A program made the translations under genes and the position numbers. The notes beneath the pieces are model-generated. The model ran no database searches and had not been told where the DNA came from. It saw only the letters and a list, made by a program, of their open reading frames with translations. A DNA stretch of 64,000 bases, from contig NC_060114.1 of assembly GCF_021155765.1 (NCBI RefSeq), positions 18,148,501 to 18,212,500 of the forward strand. Direction: 5' to 3'. Below are positions 47,395 through 60,801 of this stretch, piece after piece. This DNA comes from Diprion similis (Eukaryota; Arthropoda; Insecta; Hymenoptera; Diprionidae). Position 1 is the first letter of the stretch; each line of letters begins with the position of its first letter.

Positions 47395-50300
47395 TTTAAA
47401 AATTTTATTTTATCTTCTTTCATACGTTTAGCACAATATGTATGTACGTAATTTTTTTCACTACACTATTGTTTACTTTACAAATATTTTATTCCTCCTC
47501 CTACGATCGGGTTACATCATATTGATCGATAGTTACATCATATACAGAGAGAAATAAAAACTTAATTAAGAAAAAAAAATAATAATAATAAAAAAATAAA
47601 AATAAACTCCTTGAATTATTTTACATAAATTAGACGGAGGTCCACGATTTTTATGATCAAAGGTCCATGCTTCCAGATCATATTTACATGAACTTGAAAC
47701 GTTTTCATTCGTCCTATTTACTTGTCAAAACAAGGTTTCGACTAATAGCAACTCGAGTTCTGACAGGTCAGTTGCGTTCTTCGATTCAACATTGTGTACA
47801 CTGACAGGTTGCATGCATTTCGTCTTGTTTTAATCACGTTGGCAAGAAAGAGATACGAATATTGTATGTTCACATACATTACACGTAGAAGGCACGTAGC
47901 TATCAGTGAAAAGCTACACATTGGAATGCTTCTGGACCTTCTGGACAAATCGACGAGTCTTCGTATGTCAACTGAATAAATCGCCCTCTGGCATGAAATA
48001 GATTTTTAGAACTAATTTTCGATGCTAAAGTAGTGGATAAACGACAAGCACACAGCAGGTATTTTCACATGATTTAGTACTGTAGCTAGAGAAACATAAA
48101 AGAGGTGACTTGGAGACTCATTTGATAGCGTCGTCTGGGATGAAATGGGTTCTTAAAACTAGTTTCCTGCATATCTCAGACGGTAAGTGCGGATCGGTTA
48201 CCGACCGAGGCTTTGTCGTGCGCAGCGTCACGAAAGCATTGGGTAATAGAGAGCAAGCTGCCAAGCTTACCAAAGTGAAGTGTCACTGTGGTGGTCGAGG
48301 TAAAACAAATCACTGAAGTTTACAATTGATATTGCTGCATCATGAATAAATAATTAAGAAACTCAGTATGTTCGCAATTAAATAACTGCAAAACATTATT
48401 TATCAGCTGCTAATGCATGTCCATAGCACAGCAGAAACTGGATTTGCGCAACGGAAAACGCTGGGTTTGGTAGGGTGGGGTAAAAAACCGGAATTGCTGA
48501 TTCATAGAAGAACCAAAATATCGAATTTTCATAGACGCGACGATTTTATTCGTAGAAGTTAAAAATGTGGAAAGTTCAAGTACGGAAAATTGAAAACATA
48601 GTAAGTCGAAATACAGAAAGAGAAAGTATAGAAATGTCAAAACATTGAAGAGCAAAATCGAGAATCTGTATACGATTCTACATTATCGAGAGGCATTTTG
48701 TCGATTCTACAGTCTGGCATTCTATATTCTGACCTTTCTAATCTTTTACTTCTTCATACTTCGACTTTAAGAACTTTTAAATTCTTTATTAAGTTTTCGC
48801 TTTTTAAAAAGTTCGATGTTTTGGCCCTTCGATTTTTTGACCTTTCTAAGTATGTTGTTACCGGCGCCCGTCGTTTATAATAATAAGCCGATGCGATATT
48901 GAGGTTAAGGCTACGACCATGGTGACGTAGTAATTAATCCTTCAATGAAGTGATACTGTAAAAAAAATGTCAAAACATTGTTTTCAAGCATAAAATTGAT
49001 TTCTTAGACCATATTAGTTTACGAATAGAAAATAATTAAGAAAGATTGAAAATTTCCTTATATCTTACATTTAAAATTTCAATTGCCCCCCAACACGTGT
49101 CAATATTATCCGAATTTTTTTTTCTATAATATGAATATATTTTTGGGGTGCAGTCGCGAAAATTCGAACACGAACAAAATAACGGACACTCTAATATATA
49201 CTTATCTATACAATAGTTATAGCTTTTTGTCTTGGTTGAAATTACGCAAATTATAACGATAAATATATGCAGAAAACACAATAATCTTCTTTAGATTTCT
49301 TTGGTTTCCTTCTGTATTTTTACTTTGCGTTTTTGACAATTGCTTTACACTTTTTTTAAATCACCATTACAATTTTTAATTTTTTTCTGTAATATTTTCC
49401 AGCGCTAAATGAATTATAAAGGTACCGTCCGCACAACAGCGCAATAACCGTTCTTATAATTAGAAGCGCCGAGCTGACTTGCGACTTGAATATCATTATA
49501 TCTTCGGGGCATCAACTCCACGCGGAGTAAATACCTACATCATCTCCTGGTCGATGATACAGGATGGATTAGCTGGTTACTTCATTTTTTATACATCGTA
49601 ATTATTAAAAAAAATCGATTGCAGTCAAACATCTCAATATACCTATAATGCGCATATATATTGTTTTCTCGTCTCACTCTCTCGTGAAAAATGGAAAATT
49701 TTTGACTGTTTTGTCTATAATAATTTCTCTCTCAACAGCAATAATGTACGTAAAAATACATGATTGTCGTGTAGAATACAATGATTTGACAATTCTAGTT
49801 TACATTAATAATAATAATAATAATAATAATCAATACACAACAAACAAAGTAATTAAATAAGCGTAGAACACAATATACGTATGTTATATTGGAATCTTTG
49901 TTTACGAAACTTCAAAATTTCGGGTAACGATTAGTATCAAGCAGAATCTCTGTAAGAAAAACCGTTGTTGTGAGTACTATTTTTTTATAGCGATAATAAT
50001 AATAATACTTTGTAGAAATGTGTGCTTTGCATGAGCACATATTTTGTTTGTTAATTTGTAAAAAATGATACACTAGACATTAAACAGAGACATTATATAA
50101 ATATGTCTAATGATATTACGAGGATATATCTTTTCATTCCGGGGAGATAATAAAAAAATTACAGTTTGAACCTTAACCTCACAGTCATATGCGAGACAGT
50201 ATTTGACCACGCATAGTGTGTATATGTCAGTATAAGAGAATGTAGCAATGGATTCGTGTTCACTATGAGTTGGCTCGCAGTACAGTTCTGATGGCACAGT

Positions 50301-51232
50301 GGTGGAGTTCTTTGGTTCGTATACTTATGTTCTAAGTTCAAACTTGTCGTTATGTACGCTAATCGCAGTAATTAATTGGGCCTATAACAAGGTTTGTTTA
50401 TTGCATTTACTCGTAATGATGGGAAATTTTTTTGATATTGTATAGTTTCATTCAAAATCTTCTTAAATTTCAGGAGCAAATATTCATTTATCTTTCACTT
50501 ATTATATCAAATTGGTACTTCGTATGTAAGACAATGATAATAATTCAAACTTTAATCACATAAATTGATATCGCATTGCATGGTTCATGGAAGTAGGAAA
50601 AAAACCGATTGTGTATATATATGTTTACGTGTGTATGGTGTGCCAAACTGCTGTCACACCAATCTTGAGAGCTGTTTTACAATAAGAGGAAGGGATCAAG
50701 GTCCCCACGTTTTCTAATATACGTGAATACGCGTCGAGAGTCTGCCGAATACTTTTTCATTCTACAACTTTCATGATTGATCGAATCCACGATGTTACGT
50801 ACGTTATTATTATTTCCCGTCTTCGCGATATAATAAGTCGATTGCGAACGTGTATTAACTTGTACGCAGCACCCTCGTAATCTTTTATTTATCTTATGGA
50901 TGAAATTTTTTTTACTTCTACGGAATTATAAATCACATCCTGTTATTCTTGAAAGATGGATTGCTTCACAGAAAGATTCTGTCCTCGTAGTTGTTGAAAG
51001 TATACGTGCAGGTAGTCGGTCATCATTGGCGTGATACAAGGAACGCCGTTTTCCTCCCTCAAGTATCCATAATTCGTAGAATGAATCCGATGCCGAGTAT
51101 AATATTTCTGCACCTATAATAACATGTTTCGCTTACGTCCAACTATTTTCTACAGAACTGTTTAAAATCAGAATACCGCACGAGAAATATGATTTACAAG
51201 CATAACGGTCCTTTTTATTTTTATGATTCCAG
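47395..51232. other. Spacer between divergent DNMBP-like and plexin-B genes
   Basis: The genes diverge from here, so it should contain both promoters and first untranslated exons. No coding gene recognised. A plus-strand acceptor (TTATGATTCCAG|AAACC, 51231/51232) marks the start of the plexin 5' UTR exon. A small region at about 48100-48310 has two donor-like sites (ACGGTAAGTG, GAGGTAAAA) and could be a non-coding exon. AAT/ATT trinucleotide runs occur at 49807-49831. Confidence 0.5.
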
Positions 51233-51477: not shown

Positions 51478-53821
51478 ATGTTACCACGAGGAGTGAGGGC
51501 GTTACTCGCCCTGCTGGTACTCTCGGCGTCGACGAGGGCGTCGAGGAGCACGCCCGCGGACATAGTGCACACGTTCGCCGACCCTGAAGTCGAGCGTCTG
51601 AACCACCTGGTGGTGGACAAGAACACGGGGCGAGTGTTCGTGGGTGGTGTGAACCGTCTGTACCAGCTGTCGCCGGACCTGGACCTGGTGGTGAAGGAGG
51701 TTACGGGACCGAAGAACGACTCGAACGACTGTTCGATGATCGACTGTCCGGCCGGCGTGGTCAAGAAGTTGACCGACAACGTGAACAAGGCTCTGGTCAT
51801 CGACTACACGACCACGAGACTGATATCGTGCGGCAGTCTGTTCCAGGGGATGTGCACGGTCCGGAATCTCCACAACATATCGGACGTTGCTCAGGAGGTG
51901 CGGGAGGCCGTCGTCGCCAACAACGCGACCGCATCGACGGTAGCCTTCATCGCACCGGGTCCTCCGAACCCGCCGGTCTCCCAGGTCATGTACGTCGGCG
52001 TGACCTACACCGCGAATTCGCCTTACAGGTCCGAAGTCCCAGCGGTTAGCTCGAGATCACTGGATAAAGAGCGGATGCTCGTGATCGCCGAGACGGCGGT
52101 GACGACCGGGACGAGAATGTTCGTCAACTCTTTGGCCAGAGAACGGTTCCCCATAAACTACGTACACGGTTTCAGCAGCGAGGGTTTCAGCTACTTCCTC
52201 ACCACTCAGCCGAAGAGCACCGCCACTGGAAGCGAGTTCATTTCCAAGCTGGTGCGCGTCTGTCACGACGATCAGAACTACTACTCGTACACCGAGATAC
52301 CGATCGACTGCACGAACGAGCTGAGGAAGTACAACCTCGTCCAGGCGGCTTACGCCGGCAAGGCTGGGTCCGACCTTGCCGGACACCTCGGCATCACCGC
52401 CCAGGACGACGTACTCTTCGCCGTTTTCTCCGAGAGCAACGCCACCACCAACAGGCCGTCGTCCAAGTCCGCGCTCTGCGTCTACTCCCTAAAAGCCATC
52501 AGGAGAAAGTTCATGTCGAATATTCAACACTGCTTCGCCGGGCAGGGGCAGCGGGGATTGGACTTTATATCGCCAAGTCATCAGTGCGTTCCTACGGTGA
52601 GTCTTTGCTTTGTTCGTTTATTTTAAGTTGGTGACGTTTTTTTTGCCGCAGAATCGGGTTTCCAAATTTCGACACACGTATTTTGTTTCATTGTCTCACC
52701 ATGTTCTGATGTACAATCAAAAATTGGTAAAAATCGATGACCTGATCGTTTGATGTATCAATTTTTCCTGAGCTCTCCAATGAGATAAACAATAATTTAT
52801 GCAAAAGTTTGATGCTGGTGCGTCATTTTAATATACGCTTACTACAAACATTCATAATATCAGGTGCATGATTTCGTGGAGGATTCATTCACAAACGAAA
52901 CGAGATATTATTATTATTAATTGAATTTGGATAAACTATGCAATCTTGGTATTGGTACACGATGCTTTATACCAAGCGTAACTCTTTTCAGATTACACAA
53001 ATAACTGAACCATTTTGTTAAAAAATTCACAGGTTTCAATTAATTTTTTCCTACATAAAGAGGATACTTTTTTGACAAAAATCATTCATCAGATCACAAC
53101 TCAGTAATTGTTCTAAGTCTGTTTCTAAACAATTTTGTATTGACACTGTTTCTTGGATTGGAGTGTGGACAACCGGTACCGATCCTCTAATTCTCGGCAA
53201 ACGATATGCATATTATACTATTGATCATATAGGTATGTAGTGCCTGGCTACAAACTTGATTGAAAACTGGTCCGAAGCTTCTGATTGTTATCTGCGGGGT
53301 AATTGATCGCATTGCATACCTATAATACATAACAATGTGTGTCGTACGTACCGGGATTTTTGGTAACGATCCAATTAATCAAATTCAAAACTGTATAAGT
53401 TTTCTATTCCGGTTTCAACGGTTTCATTGTAGAGTTATTTTTCATACTGCAGAGCACGTTATGGTCAGTGAATGAAAATTAAATGTCGTTCTCGCATTTT
53501 TTATGTTACAGAAGGTGCAGACTATGCCCGAAGATTTTTGCGGTCTTGATTCCAACACGCCTCTCGGAGGCCAGGATCCTATCGCTGCTTTGCCGGTCCT
53601 GACTTTCGATGAGCATCTAACTGCCGTTGCAGCAACATCGACTGGTGATTACACCGTCGTCTTTGTCGGCACGAGCGATGGCCATCTCAAGAAAGTGAGT
53701 TGTCTTTAGTTCTTTTCCAGTTTCGTTTCCCCCCTTCCTCTTTTCCTTAACATTTCATTTCTCTTTTTTCATATTGAATGAATTCATCATCATTCACCAT
53801 GGTATAACATATACATGTATA

Positions 53822-53876
<55 letters not shown>

Positions 53877-56800
53877 ACATGGAGACGGCAGTAGTTGATG
53901 GACAGAAGGTGTGTATCACCTGTTTAATGGAGATAATAGTGGACAGCGTTGCATTGCAATATACATGTAACGTAGGTACTCTTTCTCTCTACCAGTCGGC
54001 TAATTTATAGCAGTGGTATAGTTCATTTCTTTCTCCATTTAGATAGGTACACTTTGAAAATAAGTTGAGTGTAGGCGTGTACGTTCATACTATATATACT
54101 GTATACCCATATTGCAAGAAGGTACACGCCACGTCTGCAAGAGTAGGACATTCGTGGGTGGTTCTGACCAATGCGGTCAAGCACTTACCGTGTGTCTAGA
54201 GCAATAAAACTTTTTATACACCCTTCTTCGGTGCCCTTATTCTGCCCACCAACCCACCTCCGAAAACCTACTTTGCTCCGGAGTTGTCAATCAATATGAA
54301 ACACGCGTAAGTCTGGGTTAATTGTAAATCTCGGTCTGTGATCGATACTGCTTCCAATTCCGCTTCTCCGCTACACTTCTCATTACTTCCTTCCTTTCAT
54401 CCTTTCTCCGAGACGTCGTACCTGAATCAAAAAGACACGAAAGACGAGTTGACATCAATTTTTAAAAATTCAGTCAGTACTGTCATTAATTCCTTGTATT
54501 TTGGTTTTAGGTCGTCGTTGAGAGTGCGACCTCGGCTCAGAAGTATGGTGACCTTGAGGTGGATCCGAAATCTCCTGTGAATTCGGACCTACATTTTGAC
54601 TCGCAGCTTATGCATCTCTACGTGATGACGCAGCGCAAGGTGTCCAAAGTCAAAGTTCAGGAATGTTCGGTGTACAAGACGTGCTGGGACTGCTTGGAGG
54701 CCAAGGATCCTTACTGCGGCTGGTGCTCGCTGGAGAACAAGTGCAACCTGAGAAGCGACTGTCAGGATGCAGCCACCGACCCCTTGTACTGGATTTCGTA
54801 CAAGAGCGGTAGGTGCACGACCATAGCAAGCGTCACTCCGAATCAGTTGCAAAGAACGACTGCCAGGACCCTGGATCTGGTGATAGAGAACCTTCCGACA
54901 CTCCCGGGACAGTTTCTCTGCGCGTTCTCGGCCCTCGACAAAACCCTCATAACAAATGCTACCCGAAAATCGCACGGCGTTAATTGCACTACTCCAAGGA
55001 CCGATCTGCTGCCGTTGATACCTCAAGCCGAGCACCACTTTACGGCTAGATTGTCCGTCCGAAGGACCAGCGGACCCGACCTCGTTGCCACAAATTTTAC
55101 CTTCTTTGACTGCAACACGTACAGCTCTTGTACCCAGTGCGTTTCATCGAGCTTCCCCTGCGACTGGTGCATCGATGGTCACAGATGCACTCACGACACT
55201 GCCGAGAATTGTCGCAATGACATTTTGGTCACCGGAGTCAGCGTGAGTAAAGCTTTTTGCCGAGGAACAGTTTTAACCAGATTGTTTCCCCTTCGTTTAA
55301 CCTGCGTTATATTGATCCGTTGTGTATTACTAATTTTCAGAGAATCGGCCCGAGTTATCGAAGTGGACCAGGTTTTTGTCCTGCTATTAACCCCACGGAT
55401 TCTAAAGAAATACTCATCCCGTCTGGAATAACGAAAGGTATCCATGTCAAAGTGCATATCATTGGGGTAAGCGCAGAATTTGATCATAAGCCTAAAAATT
55501 TTCGACCGTGTTCAAAATAGACGCTTTTGTATGTTATAATATGTAATTCAAGTATTCTTCTGCTTATCTCTTCAACAGCAATTCATCGTGCAAACGAGGT
55601 TCGTCTGTGAGTTCAACATCGAAGGACGTGTAACGAGCGTTATCGCACAACTCTTAGCAGACACGATATACTGCGACTGGACAAAATTCTCGTACACGTC
55701 AAGTGCGCCGAATATCACGGTACCTTTCGCGGTAATATGGGGGGGTTCGAAGCCTCTGGATAATCCCAGCAACATTCATGTTGTCATATACCGTTGCAAG
55801 GATATGGCTGACAACTGTGGCATGTGTCTGACTCTCCCCGAAAAGTACGGATGCGGGTGGTGTCAAAGCTCTGATAAGTGCGAGGTGAAAGAGCAGTGCA
55901 ACGATCGAGGTTCCGGCGTTTGGTTAAACAGAAATGAAACCTGCCCAAACCCAGAGATTCTATCGTTCGAGCCGCAGCTTGGGCCATGGGAAGGAGGTAC
56001 GAATGTAACGATACGAGGAATAAACTTGGGGAAAACATTTGCCGATATATACGCTGGAGTAAAGATTGCCGGACTTCCGTGTGAGCCTTACCCTGAACTC
56101 TACGTCAGGACAAAACAGATCGTATGCAGAGTCGACGGGCCTGGTACTCCTCAGGAGCGAAAGGGACCCGTGATAGTCAAGATAGAGGATTTTCGCGGCT
56201 ACTCGGCCGTTAACTTCGAATTCGTCGACCCTGTTATCGAGTCCATATCGCCTAAGTATGGCCCTCGGAGTGGTGGGACCGTCATCAGGATAACAGGACG
56301 TTACATGAACGCCGGAAGCAGGATACTCGCTTTCATAGACAAGCTACCGTGCTCCATAATAAGCGCCAAGGCTAACGAGACCCTCTGCGTGACCAGCGCT
56401 AGCGCTAGCGCTAGCAACACCACCCGCAGTGGTGTGCTAAGGATGCAGTTTGACAGCGGAGTTAGACAGTACAACGGCGTTTTCGAATACGTCGACGATC
56501 CCATGATAGAATCCGCCGACAGCGGCGTTGCGGGCCTGATCAAAATACCGAAGGGAATTCCCGCCGGTGGTATAAAGATATCGGTAATCGGGATGAATCT
56601 TGGATATGTAAAAAATCCTCAGATGTACGTCTACTACCACGACAAAATGTTCGTTTCTGAGTGCATTGCGGTCAACCATACAAACATGATTTGCAATTCA
56701 CCCGTCGTCGATATATCCGAAGACACTCACCTGGACGCTGAACATCCACTGATGCTCGACTACGGATTCCTCATGAACAATGGCACGGGCGTACAGAAGC

Positions 56801-57227
56801 TTTCCGCTCATGGGTTTGTGATACATTTCGTTTACATGCGCTGTTATCACATCCCGGTAACTTATCTTACCCTTTGTTTCTAACCAGTATATTTATTATT
56901 TACAGACATGAAAACTTCGTGCTTTTCCCCAATCCGGTGTACGAAGTTTTCGAGGAGGAAGTGAAGTACGAAAAATGCGAATACCTCGTTATAAACGGTG
57001 AGCACTTGAACCGTGCGTGTCAAGAGTCGGACGTAACTGTCCAAATCGGTGACTCTTTCTGCAACGTGACGTCACTATCGAGACGACAGCTGACATGTCG
57101 CCTCTCTCCACTTCAGCCTCTACTCTTTAATAATACGGGTCTTGCCAACAAGCAGGAACTTCCAGAGGTGATTGTAGTCGTCGGAGATGGGCTGAAGTAC
57201 AAAATTGGGAAGCTGAGCAGAACTTAA
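51478..57227 (+). CDS. PlexB: Plexin B ectodomain (no transmembrane or cytoplasmic region seen)
   Basis: Plexins are semaphorin receptors for axon guidance. Six coding exons: 51478-52596, 53512-53694, 54511-55242, 55341-55466, 55579-56813, 56906-57227, all in phase, 1238 residues. A signal peptide is at 1-22, cleaved near STRAS. The Sema domain spans about 30-475 (GRVFVGGVNRLYQL; FVGTSDGHLKK). PSI-1 is 485-518 (DPYCGWCSLENKC), PSI-2 632-668 (PCDWCIDGHRC), PSI-3 792-828 (CGWCQSSDKC). IPT repeats begin about 844, 938, 1027 and 1133. The gene then stops after VVVGDGLKYKIGKLSRT. Full plexins run to about 2000 residues with a TM helix and split Ras-GAP; none of that lies in the next several kb. 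The exon 5 donor (CATGG|GTTTG) is weak but restores phase. AATAAA follows at 57734 and 57829. It is a secreted form, a partial duplicate, or an isoform whose further exons lie outside. Confidence 0.9.
53828..53870 (+). repeat. (TA)n microsatellite in plexin B intron 2
   Basis: About 21 perfect TA dinucleotides followed by CACACA, in the intron 53695-54510. Confidence 0.95.
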
Positions 57228-58805
57228 GTAAAGTTCGAAATGGAAGAAATCGTTTATTTCAAGATTGGCAGTTTCAGATTAAAGTAGATTAACCGTTGAA
57301 AGTAGAGTTAGGATAATGTGGCATTGAAATGATTCTCATCGATGGATAACGCTCGCGACATTTTTATGTGTTTTGTACATTTCCTACCATCGACATTTTC
57401 TGACAATGAAGCTAAAGTTGTTCAAAACGAGACAAGAAACTCACCAAAATAACTCCGTTTTTATTTCGAGCCACACATCCACGATTCTTCTGGTAATTGC
57501 CGAATATAAGTTTTCAGGTAAGCACTTCAAATCACGTTAAACAGCTTAAATCTGACGAACTGAATTCCGAACTGCCAAAGCGTGTGATTCTCTACCCGTT
57601 GCTCATCTTCTAATGACGCCTCACAGTGCTGATGACGAGAAAATCGGAGAAGCCGCGTAGTAACGGCGCAGTTTGAAGTTTGCATCAGACATAACGTATA
57701 ATAAATTTGAATTCTCTGACAAAGTTCCGGTTGAATAAAATACATATGCGCGTAGACTATATGCGTACAAATAAATGAAAGTAAGACACAAAAATCGCAG
57801 ACCTTATGTTGTACAAACATAGGATTGAAATAAATAATATAATTTTACGAATAGTGCGTTTATATATCACTATGTTTGTCCAGATTGAAGATTTACCGCA
57901 TTACGGAGTCTCAGACTCCACCAACAAGGACTGATTGAAATATATCGGATTCTTTTTCGATGCGATTGGTTGGAAATGGTTAACCCTTTGATAGACATTT
58001 ATGTATGTATTTTGTACTTGTTGTGAGTAGACGATAGATAATGTTTTGCTATAAATTTTAAGCTTAAAAATTGGGTTGATTATTTATCTGAGCAAACATC
58101 TTATTTGTTAATATATATGATTTGTTCAGTTTCGGCTACTACAGTGGTACTTTGTCATGGTAAATGTGCTCTGCATTACCTACTGCTTTCGCTTACCGAC
58201 ATATACATACTATCCAGACACATCAGTCAGTTCCAAAAATCTTTTGTGTACTGACATCGGTATGTTTGTTTACTAGGGACCATGTACCGTGACTCGCCGA
58301 TATCACTGCATGTTTGGACTCTGTAATACCGACAGCCGCATGAGCTTCAAGTGCATGAGGGTTGGTTTAAGATTTTTCTTATTTTTTTTTTATACGTCGT
58401 GTTTTCTTACTCAAACCCTGAAAAAATGCACACGTGTTTATCAACATTTCCTATGGCCTTGGGACTCTGTTGCACCCTGTTCTCGCTATTGGAATTGTTG
58501 TTCAACTCCGTCGCCCTCCCCCTCCAGAATATCGATACATACCGGCAACTGATGACGGAATTCGACGCTTTTAACACTGCCAATACTACACTCGGATGTT
58601 TACTGACTTAACATCGATCACAAGCACTTGCAATAACAGTGATTTTTTATTTTTCCGACCAAATCTTTCCCCTTACTCCCTAATCTCTGCTGGTATTCTT
58701 CACACGTGTTACGTAAGCCTTTCTAGAGTTCATCCTAACCTATGATTTCACTGTGTACACAAATGCAATGAGTTAAAAGTCTAGATAATATACTATGCAC
58801 AGGAT
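57228..58805. other. Plexin 3' UTR and upstream region of the TMEM141-like gene
   Basis: The left part carries plexin polyadenylation signals (AATAAA at 57734-57739 and 57829-57834). No plexin transmembrane or GAP exon is visible. The right part should hold the promoter and untranslated exon of the TMEM141-like transcript, with an acceptor (TATGCACAG|GAT) just before its ATG. A hydrophobic open frame at 58351-58611 has no homology I know and is not supported. Confidence 0.55.
57734..57834 (+). terminator. Polyadenylation signals of plexin B transcript
   Basis: AATAAA at 57734-57739 and again at 57829-57834, about 510-610 bases after the plexin stop codon. They support transcription ending here, before the next gene. 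Confidence 0.5.
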
Positions 58806-59175
58806 ATGAACGCCGACGGTAATTCCGTAGCTATTGGTTTGGTGGAATATCCGGCATATGGATCCTATGCGGAGTGCATGACGAGGGCTTTTTTTGCTGG
58901 TTTATCGACATTCACTATAGGTGAGAACACAAGACCCCCAATTGGCAATGTTACACATATACATTCATATGTGATACTGTTTACTAATCTCTTGACTTTC
59001 AGTATTTTCCGGGACTTTTTTCGGACAGCGACTTTTGAAGAAGAACACCGTGTTCTCTTCCAAAAAAAGAACCATCCTTGCTTCTACTTTAGTCGCATCT
59101 GTAGCCTCCTACTACGTTGCCTCAAAGCGTGTAACTCTTTGCAGAAAATCTTGGACTAAAAATGGCAAAGATTAA
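58806..59175 (+). CDS. TMEM141: TMEM141-like small membrane protein
   Basis: Small two-helix membrane protein of unknown biochemical role; the TMEM141 family is conserved in animals. Two coding exons, 58806-58920 and 59003-59175 (donor ACTATAG|GTGAGA, acceptor CTTTCAG|TATT), 95 residues. The family signature is visible as YPAYGSYAECMTRAFFAGLSTFTIG, comparable with the vertebrate HPG-GEYAACQSHAF-GVFTF segment. TM helices are about 29-48 and 62-80, the second being ILASTLVASVASYYVASKRV. The basic C-terminus ends KSWTKNGKD. The acceptor just upstream of the ATG implies a spliced 5' UTR. The stop codon is 31 bases from the ATG of the GTPase gene on the same strand. Confidence 0.8.
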
Positions 59176-59206
59176 TTTGTTCCTCGAAGCAAGGTTGTGA
59201 GCAGAT

Positions 59207-60801
59207 ATGTTTAGCCTCAGAAAGTTGACGCGACTCGCGTCGGGATTTGTTAAGCACTCTCTACCCACTAAGGGAAAGACTTTTGGTGCACCGTTCACGG
59301 TGATCAATCGTCATGCTCATGAGTTGACAGAAATAGAAAAAGACGAATTGGAAGATGAGGAATACGATGAGCTGTCCTCACGATTTCTGGGAATATGTCC
59401 TGGTGGACATGGAGCACTCGTCTTGCAGCCGTACATAAAATGGGGATCAGAAAAACGGAGAAATACGACGCCAGAGTTGCAGCTTGAAGAGGCTGTGACG
59501 CTTCTTAAAACACTGCAAAACTGGAGAGTAGTTGATAAAATGTGCGTTTCGCTGATGCACTTGAAGAAAAAGGAACTACTTGGGAAGGGAAACCTTCAGA
59601 CTTTGAAGACTAAAGTGAGAAGTAACTCGGAAATTACCGCAGTATTCATCAGTACAAATTTGCTCCAGCAAGTGCAAATACAAGAGCTGAGAAATATCCT
59701 CGGCGTTCCAGTTTACGATCGATATTCGATCGTTGTACAGATATTCAGGGCTCATGCCAAAAGTCAAGAGGCAAAACTGCAGGTTGCGATAGCAGAGATT
59801 CCCTACATGTGGATGAAGTTGAATGTCATGAAGGAAACCCGGGAAGAACAAGTGGGCACGTTTGAATCACATCGAAAGCTTCTTCAGGCCCGTGAAACTA
59901 AGCTGAAAAATGCCCTTCTGAAACTTAAGGCACAGAGGCATTTACTAAGGAGTAAACGACTGCAAAATAGAGTTCCCACTATCGCTGTTGTCGGCTACAC
60001 AAACGCAGGGAAAACTTCTTTGATCAAAGCTCTCACTGGAGACTTAAGTCTGCACCCTAGGAATTACCTATTTGCTACTCTTGATGTCACCATTCATCAA
60101 GGCATTCTACCCTCAAGACTGAAAGTATTGTTCGTTGATACTATTGGCTTTATTCAAGATGTGCCTGCCACTCTTATTGAGCCTTTTGTAGCAACTTTAG
60201 AAGACGCCATGAACGCTGTAATTGGCTTTTGATTACTCTCATTTTGTTCTTTTGTCTTCAGTCAGTCATGCTCTTTTAACAGATGATGGATGTTTTGTTA
60301 CCAGGACATTATCTTGAATGTGCATGATGCAAGTCATCCGGATAGGCAGGCCCAGATGGAGCACATGGAAGCAACGTTAAAAGGCTTGATTAAAGATCAG
60401 GTGGTAATAAATGTTGCAAATAAAATTGACCGGGTATCAGAAGACGCGCCTCGACTGAATATGCTTGGTGTATCGGCAACCAAGCTCATAGGTAAGTTGT
60501 TTACAAAGTTTCAGAAAGCAGAGTTGCACAAACAGAGTTGTATTGAACATCGCCTTTGGAATCCTCAGGTATAGACGGTTTACGGGACGAACTCGATAAG
60601 ACTATACTAGGGGCAACAGGACGTTCCGTAGTCCGCGTTAGAGTGGAATCTGGAAGCAGAGCATCTGCTTGGCTCTACAAAGAAACTACAGTGACAAATG
60701 TAGAAGCTGATCCAGAAAACGCCCAGTACTTGTTCATGGATGTGATCACTACAGAGTTACAGCTAAAAATGTTTCGAGTATTTTTAAGAAAATACGAATA
60801 A
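59207..60801 (+). CDS. GTPBP6: HflX-family GTPase, GTPBP6-like (putative mitochondrial)
   Basis: HflX-type GTPases bind ribosomes; animal GTPBP6 acts in mitochondrial ribosome assembly and recycling. Exons: 59207-60217, 60305-60491, 60569-60801 (donors AACGCT|GTAATT and ATAG|GTAAGT; acceptors TACCAG|GAC and CCTCAG|GTA), 476 residues. The basic N-terminus, MFSLRKLTRLASGFVKHSL, fits a mitochondrial targeting peptide. The HflX N-terminal domain is about 90-210 (VPVYDRYSIVVQIFRAHAKSQEAKLQV), followed by a coiled coil at about 210-250. In the G domain, G1 is GYTNAGKTS at 263-271, G2 in YLFATLDVT, G3 DTIGF at 311-315 and G4 NKID at 376-379. G5 may be VSATKLIGIDGL. It starts 31 bases after the TMEM141-like stop; the next upstream promoter signal is unclear. 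Confidence 0.95.

Follow-up and report, generated by a model that had tools for sequence, protein, structure and literature searches.

Why should a plexin gene with an intact extracellular half end before its membrane helix? The question is raised by a gene in the window (the whole stretch of DNA analyzed here, 64,000 nucleotides from Diprion similis), which the first-pass annotation had taken for a Plexin B gene with six coding exons in phase, offering a secreted decoy, a partial copy of a complete gene at another locus, a giant intron or a broken assembly as explanations. The six exons are borne out: the gene, here called copy 1 (copy 2 being the full-length Plexin A described below), is read on the forward strand from 51478 to 57227 as a single, uninterrupted frame of 1238 codons with five GT-AG introns and a TAA at 57225-57227. 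Four exon models keep the frame (1235-1238 aa), 1-3 residues apart at two splice sites; the model analyzed is that of 1238 aa, with GTGAGT as the donor of exon 3. The exons, with their divergence from copy 2, are the following.

51478..52596, + strand: exon 1, 373 codons; N-terminus resembling a signal peptide, then the larger part of Sema; one synonymous difference, residues all the same
53512..53694, + strand: exon 2; Sema domain; dS 0.325, dN 0.053
54511..55242, + strand: exon 3; end of Sema, PSI1, IPT1, PSI2; dS 0.031, dN 0.007
55341..55466, + strand: exon 4; start of IPT2; dS 0.107, dN 0.089
55579..56813, + strand: exon 5; IPT2, PSI3, IPT3-5; dS 0.197, dN 0.047
56906..57227, + strand: exon 6, terminal; IPT6 and the stop TAA at 57225-57227; dS 0.506, dN 0.118

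Class and domain content of the truncated gene

The class originally assigned was wrong. In a comparison with solved structures, copy 1 scores highest against Drosophila Plexin A, with 1022 bits across residues 39-693, compared with 212-220 bits for human Plexin-B1, and on these scores Plexin B is rejected in favor of Plexin A. The alignments with human PlexA2, PlexA4 and PlexA1 score 571-634 bits, starting at residues 32-41 of the 1238 and reaching 1197-1198, while the PlexB of the same genome is 31-44% identical in five pieces. Pfam finds the Sema domain and the three PSI repeats that had been read from the sequence at first pass (Sema, PSI three times, PSI_PlexinA-B, TIG_plexin, TIG_2 and TIG three times), and exon 6 by itself scores as TIG; because of these TIG matches, and partly because of the near end-to-end alignment with the human PlexA ectodomains, six IPT repeats are counted instead of the four reported earlier. 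By its sequence, copy 1 thus looks like an essentially complete plexin-A ectodomain, with Sema, three PSI and six IPT repeats in plexin order.

What Plexin A carries beyond the ectodomain is missing. The hydropathy profile shows a hydrophobic N-terminus, where the highest 19-residue value of copy 1 is found (1.33, at residue 1); no 19-residue window exceeds this value, so the single transmembrane (TM) helix of a Plexin A is absent, the helix of copy 2 reaching 2.69. The cytoplasmic RasGAP domain (PF08337) is likewise absent from copy 1, its matches in the genome lying at PlexB (one) and copy 2 (three). In IPT6, residue 1156 (exon 6, 56906-57227) is Cys in copy 1 and Ser in copy 2, the cysteine totals being 48 and 47, respectively; the extra cysteine could form a bond inside IPT6 or join one secreted molecule to another.

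The full-length paralog and the breakpoint

A genome-wide search for the plexin GAP domain, as recommended at first pass, was made over the 269,008,206 bases and 60 contigs of the assembly and returned four PF08337 matches at two loci, both on contig C10: 21260940-21262703 on the minus strand, the PlexB locus, which is 3 Mb from copy 1, and 18275549-18277595 on the plus strand, which belongs to a full-length PlexA, copy 2. The copy 1 protein has at least 16 matching stretches in its own genome, all in copy 1, copy 2 or PlexB (21.26 Mb).

C10:18232939, 18261643, 18272531, 18273361, 18273599 and 18274975, + strand: starts of the copy 2 exons, from the genome search with the copy 1 protein
C10:18275549-18277595, + strand: RasGAP exons of copy 2 (PF08337)

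Copy 2 lies on the same strand as copy 1, its exon 1 starting 27 kb and its RasGAP exons ~70 kb past the copy 1 stop; its exon 6 encodes without interruption the helix GVSAAIVILLFIFTAFLVA and the beginning of RasGAP. Homology between the copies, as detected by blastn, covers the exons and some of the intron sequence and begins in the 5′ flank at 49260, which is 2.2 kb before the ATG, and this establishes that copy 1 duplicates part of a full-length gene. In copy 2, the first two introns measure ~27.6 and ~10.7 kb (C10:18234058-18261642 and 18261826-18272530), as against 0.9 and 0.8 kb in copy 1, and therefore any enhancers within these long introns would be missing from copy 1. Inspection by eye of the starts of ORFs of at least 110 aa made no extra genes evident in the large copy 2 introns or in the DNA that separates copy 2 from the GTPase gene listed below. 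With exon 3 as query, no relatives were found in collections of genome contigs and viral contigs, as is expected for an insect gene.

The 3′ end of the duplication and the sequence beyond it contain the following features.

57218..57227, + strand: duplication breakpoint, inside the juxtamembrane/TM exon; blastn homology stops at 57218
57700..57834, + strand: four AATAAA signals (57700, 57734, 57770, 57829) downstream of the copy 1 stop
58785-59159, + strand: ORF of TMEM141 (Pfam E 4e-07 over 29 profile positions)
59201-60232, + strand: ORF of a GTPase gene (GTP-bdg_N, GTP-bdg_M, MMR_HSR1), named GTPBP6 at first pass

As homology stops at 57218 within exon 6, the breakpoint falls inside a coding exon. 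The last common residues are KIGKLS; copy 1 then adds a new R-T and the stop, a codon not present in copy 2, which continues with YASPTGINGS (in full YASPTGINGSLSRPAMY) and then the helix. The stop does precede the position of the helix, as had been noted; the distance of a few residues does not hold for copy 2, where 17 residues separate the last common Ser from the hydropathy-defined helix, while copy 1 has its two new ones. The AATAAA signals and the two neighboring genes described at first pass are found where expected, both genes being on the same strand and situated between copy 1 and copy 2.

A hydropathy scan of 57228-58810 for a TM exon hidden between the stop and TMEM141 met just short stop-to-stop ORFs with peaks of at most 1.93, among which such an exon could still lie. 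An ORF of 94 aa (58327-58611, + strand), not evidently coding, contains the hydrophobic stretch of 1.93. A donor-like GTAAAG is located at 57228, directly after TAA, and splicing there would retain the stop. A search that skips very common words found no second copy in the genome of the DNA beyond the breakpoint, except for a dispersed repeat in 57938-58191; contigs C2, C3, C6 and C8 carry this repeat at eight further places, with 68-80% identity.

Mosaic divergence and constraint

The similarity of the two copies is very uneven along the gene.

49260..50363, + strand: common 5′ flank (promoter side); four blastn pieces match C10:18227353-18228531 at 68-74% identity
50640..52610, + strand: putative gene-conversion tract, upstream non-coding sequence and exon 1; 1965 of 1972 columns identical to copy 2

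Over the tract of ~2 kb the identity is 99.6%, and stretches of 602 and 809 bases show no difference at all; outside it, 55 of 100 bases are identical in 50500-50599 and 60 of 100 from 52700. Since identity is far lower on both sides, the tract points to a recent gene conversion. In bins of 100 bases the copies are 97-100% identical in exon 3, 82-100% in exon 5, which contains short identical runs, and 82-87% in exon 6 (84% over the exon's DNA). Exon 5 also holds the sole coding length difference between the copies, 12 bp in frame within 56330-56430 (a SASASA stretch). The pieces of flank and intron 1 are 68-74% identical, corresponding to Jukes-Cantor distances of 0.32-0.42. Synonymous differences amount to 1 at 273 sites in exon 1 and to 89 at 421 sites in exons 2, 4, 5 and 6 (Fisher p 4e-20), the latter exons being converted less than exon 1, not free of conversion. 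The mosaic is most simply read as an old duplication followed by later gene conversion. A distance of 0.35 between the copies, at a mutation rate close to 3.5e-9 per site and generation as in Hymenoptera, would correspond, as a rough estimate, to about 50 million generations.

Selection was assessed by pairwise Nei-Gojobori comparison of copy 1 with copy 2 and bootstrapping over codons. For exons 2, 4, 5 and 6 combined, dS is 0.249 and dN 0.062, giving a dN/dS of 0.249 (0.169-0.337), and late exon 5 together with exon 6 gives 0.259 (0.173-0.386); the upper bounds are 0.43 for exon 2, 0.84 for exon 3, 0.39 for exon 5, 0.41 for exon 6 and 0.53 for late exon 5. Exon 4, a single small exon, has a dN/dS of 0.83 (0.16-3.8), compatible with neutrality. 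If copy 1 evolved neutrally, copy 2 under constraint and both branches were equal, a mean dN/dS near or above 0.5 would be expected. Neutral evolution of 620 codons was also simulated from the copy 1 sequence (2000 runs, assuming no repair by conversion), and 0.15% of the runs stayed without stops at a branch length of 0.125 (half of dS), 0.3% at 0.10 and 5.6% at 0.05.

The proteins differ at 79 residues, two of which are the new R-T end. Using the genome's own PlexB, 26 of the 79 can be polarized, copy 1 being ancestral at 11 and copy 2 at 15; among the rest, PlexB matches neither copy at 42, is unaligned at 10 and inconsistently aligned at one. Drosophila PlexA adds three sites, with copy 2 ancestral at all of them, which brings the changes polarized by either protein to 29, the derived state being that of copy 1 at 18 of them against 11 for copy 2 (p 0.26). 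Drosophila PlexA can be aligned with a part that holds 11 differences; 5 of these are polarized, and because all five are derived in copy 1, constraint on it may be relaxed. Copy 1 may thus evolve somewhat faster, yet it does not behave like a free pseudogene: its frame is open, its introns are GT-AG and its dN/dS is 0.25.

These data bear on the possibility that copy 1 is a neutral or decaying partial duplicate of no function, its open frame owed to luck and to repair by gene conversion. The five derived sites and the ratio of exon 4 would fit such a relic, and gene conversion from the intact copy 2 can itself hold the frames of copy 1 open, the near-identical tracts making such repair feasible. 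However, the dN/dS of 0.25 (upper bound 0.34; 0.26 with an upper bound of 0.39 for late exon 5 and exon 6), together with open and spliceable exons 2, 4, 5 and 6, argues against a neutral pseudogene, simulated neutral change seldom leaves 620 codons open, the splice sites are intact and the lone length difference keeps the frame. A functionless relic is therefore considered unlikely, and that selection kept the frame of copy 1 open over a long divergence is supported, though not proven.

It has also to be considered that copy 1 might be an alternative 5′ half of one PlexA locus, its exons 1-5 being spliced over ~69 kb to exon 6 of copy 2, which would yield the full receptor from a second promoter and the short form as a by-product. 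The junction of exon 5 with copy 2 exon 6 is in phase and open through the TM helix to residue 1440, and the copies share a strand; against this, TMEM141, the GTPase gene and four AATAAA signals intervene, and copy 1 has an open exon 6 of its own with an AG acceptor, which leaves this arrangement quite improbable. The related proposal of a giant intron was right in that TM and GAP exons do follow on this strand, at a distance of ~70 kb; they belong, however, to a second gene with six ectodomain exons of its own, and as the sole explanation a giant intron is disfavored. An assembly artifact (haplotype duplication or misjoin), the last of the original explanations, might be suspected from the almost identical 2-kb tract but is very hard to credit, given a contig of 22.6 Mb, a 3′ flank of copy 1 for which no second copy was found except for the short dispersed repeat, and sequences that appear too divergent for haplotypes of one locus, namely the 5′ flank (68-74%), exon 6 (84%) and portions of the first two introns.

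A putative secreted decoy and its precedents

The reading preferred here is that copy 1 is a maintained, secreted paralog of the PlexA ectodomain, and as its role we consider that of a decoy for PlexA ligands the probable one. As the sequences show, Plexin A was duplicated nearby, from the 5′ flank to a point inside the juxtamembrane/TM exon, and copy 1 has retained the promoter side, the signal-peptide-like N-terminus and the whole ectodomain, ending in two novel residues and a stop. As the N-terminus is hydrophobic and a membrane helix is missing, the product is predicted to be exported and released. Its Sema domain, of which the part encoded by exon 1 is identical in amino acids to that of the receptor (most simply through the recent gene conversion), should bind the ligands of PlexA, by the Drosophila rule class 1 semaphorins and perhaps Sema5c. 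Without a RasGAP domain the usual route of signaling is closed to it, and the protein might be a secreted decoy that sequesters these ligands, or might itself engage transmembrane Sema1a and so elicit reverse signaling. Matches to the Sema profile (PF01403) number 12 in the genome, half of them (6 of 12) outside plexins, at four places on contigs C10, C12 and C14.

Drosophila PlexA and human plexin-A1, -A2 and -A4, the top sequence matches, have a plexin-A ectodomain like that of copy 1 and carry a TM helix and RasGAP, before both of which copy 1 stops. Released ectodomains that are potential decoys occur as a naturally spliced secreted form of plexin-B1 and as soluble receptors such as sVEGFR1; these arise by splicing of one gene, whereas copy 1 is a dedicated paralog. 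Binding by a soluble ectodomain has a precedent in Drosophila PlexA (residues 28-730), for which PMC6695400 gives an apparent Kd of 141 nM with Fc-dimerized Sema1a and of 586 nM with Sema1b. The sponge A. queenslandica is described as having a truncated intracellular domain in four of its six plexins (Sci Rep 2019;9:1970, PMC6374515); like copy 1 they are missing part of the signaling half, but there the intracellular part is truncated, whereas in copy 1, a nearby partial duplicate in an insect, TM helix and cytoplasmic part are both gone. An engineered decoy, B1SP (plexin-B1 Sema/PSI-Fc), blocks semaphorin signaling, its authors preferring binding to plexin/neuropilin over sequestration of the ligand as the explanation (PMC5801490); as is predicted for copy 1 it is a soluble piece of a plexin ectodomain, but it is artificial, fused to Fc and of class B. 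Among the open-access papers listed by literature searches, none reports an insect gene of this kind.

Taken together, copy 1 appears to be a dedicated, predicted-secreted plexin-A ectodomain paralog that arose by a real partial duplication, and given constraint and conversion a function is likely. More tentatively, and with somewhat less than even confidence, the genome might encode a PlexA decoy that has been kept for tens of millions of generations, its ligand-binding Sema domain kept matched to that of the receptor by repeated conversion while the IPT stalk diverges. With a soluble plexin-A ectodomain encoded by a gene of its own, an insect would have a heritable, independently regulated antagonist of PlexA semaphorin signaling, which could also serve as a soluble ligand for reverse signaling by transmembrane Sema1a. 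If the tentative reading is true, a receptor for guidance cues and a soluble antagonist of it would be evolving in concert within about 70 kb, and the conversion mosaic would illustrate the way in which a decoy keeps pace with the receptor it mimics.
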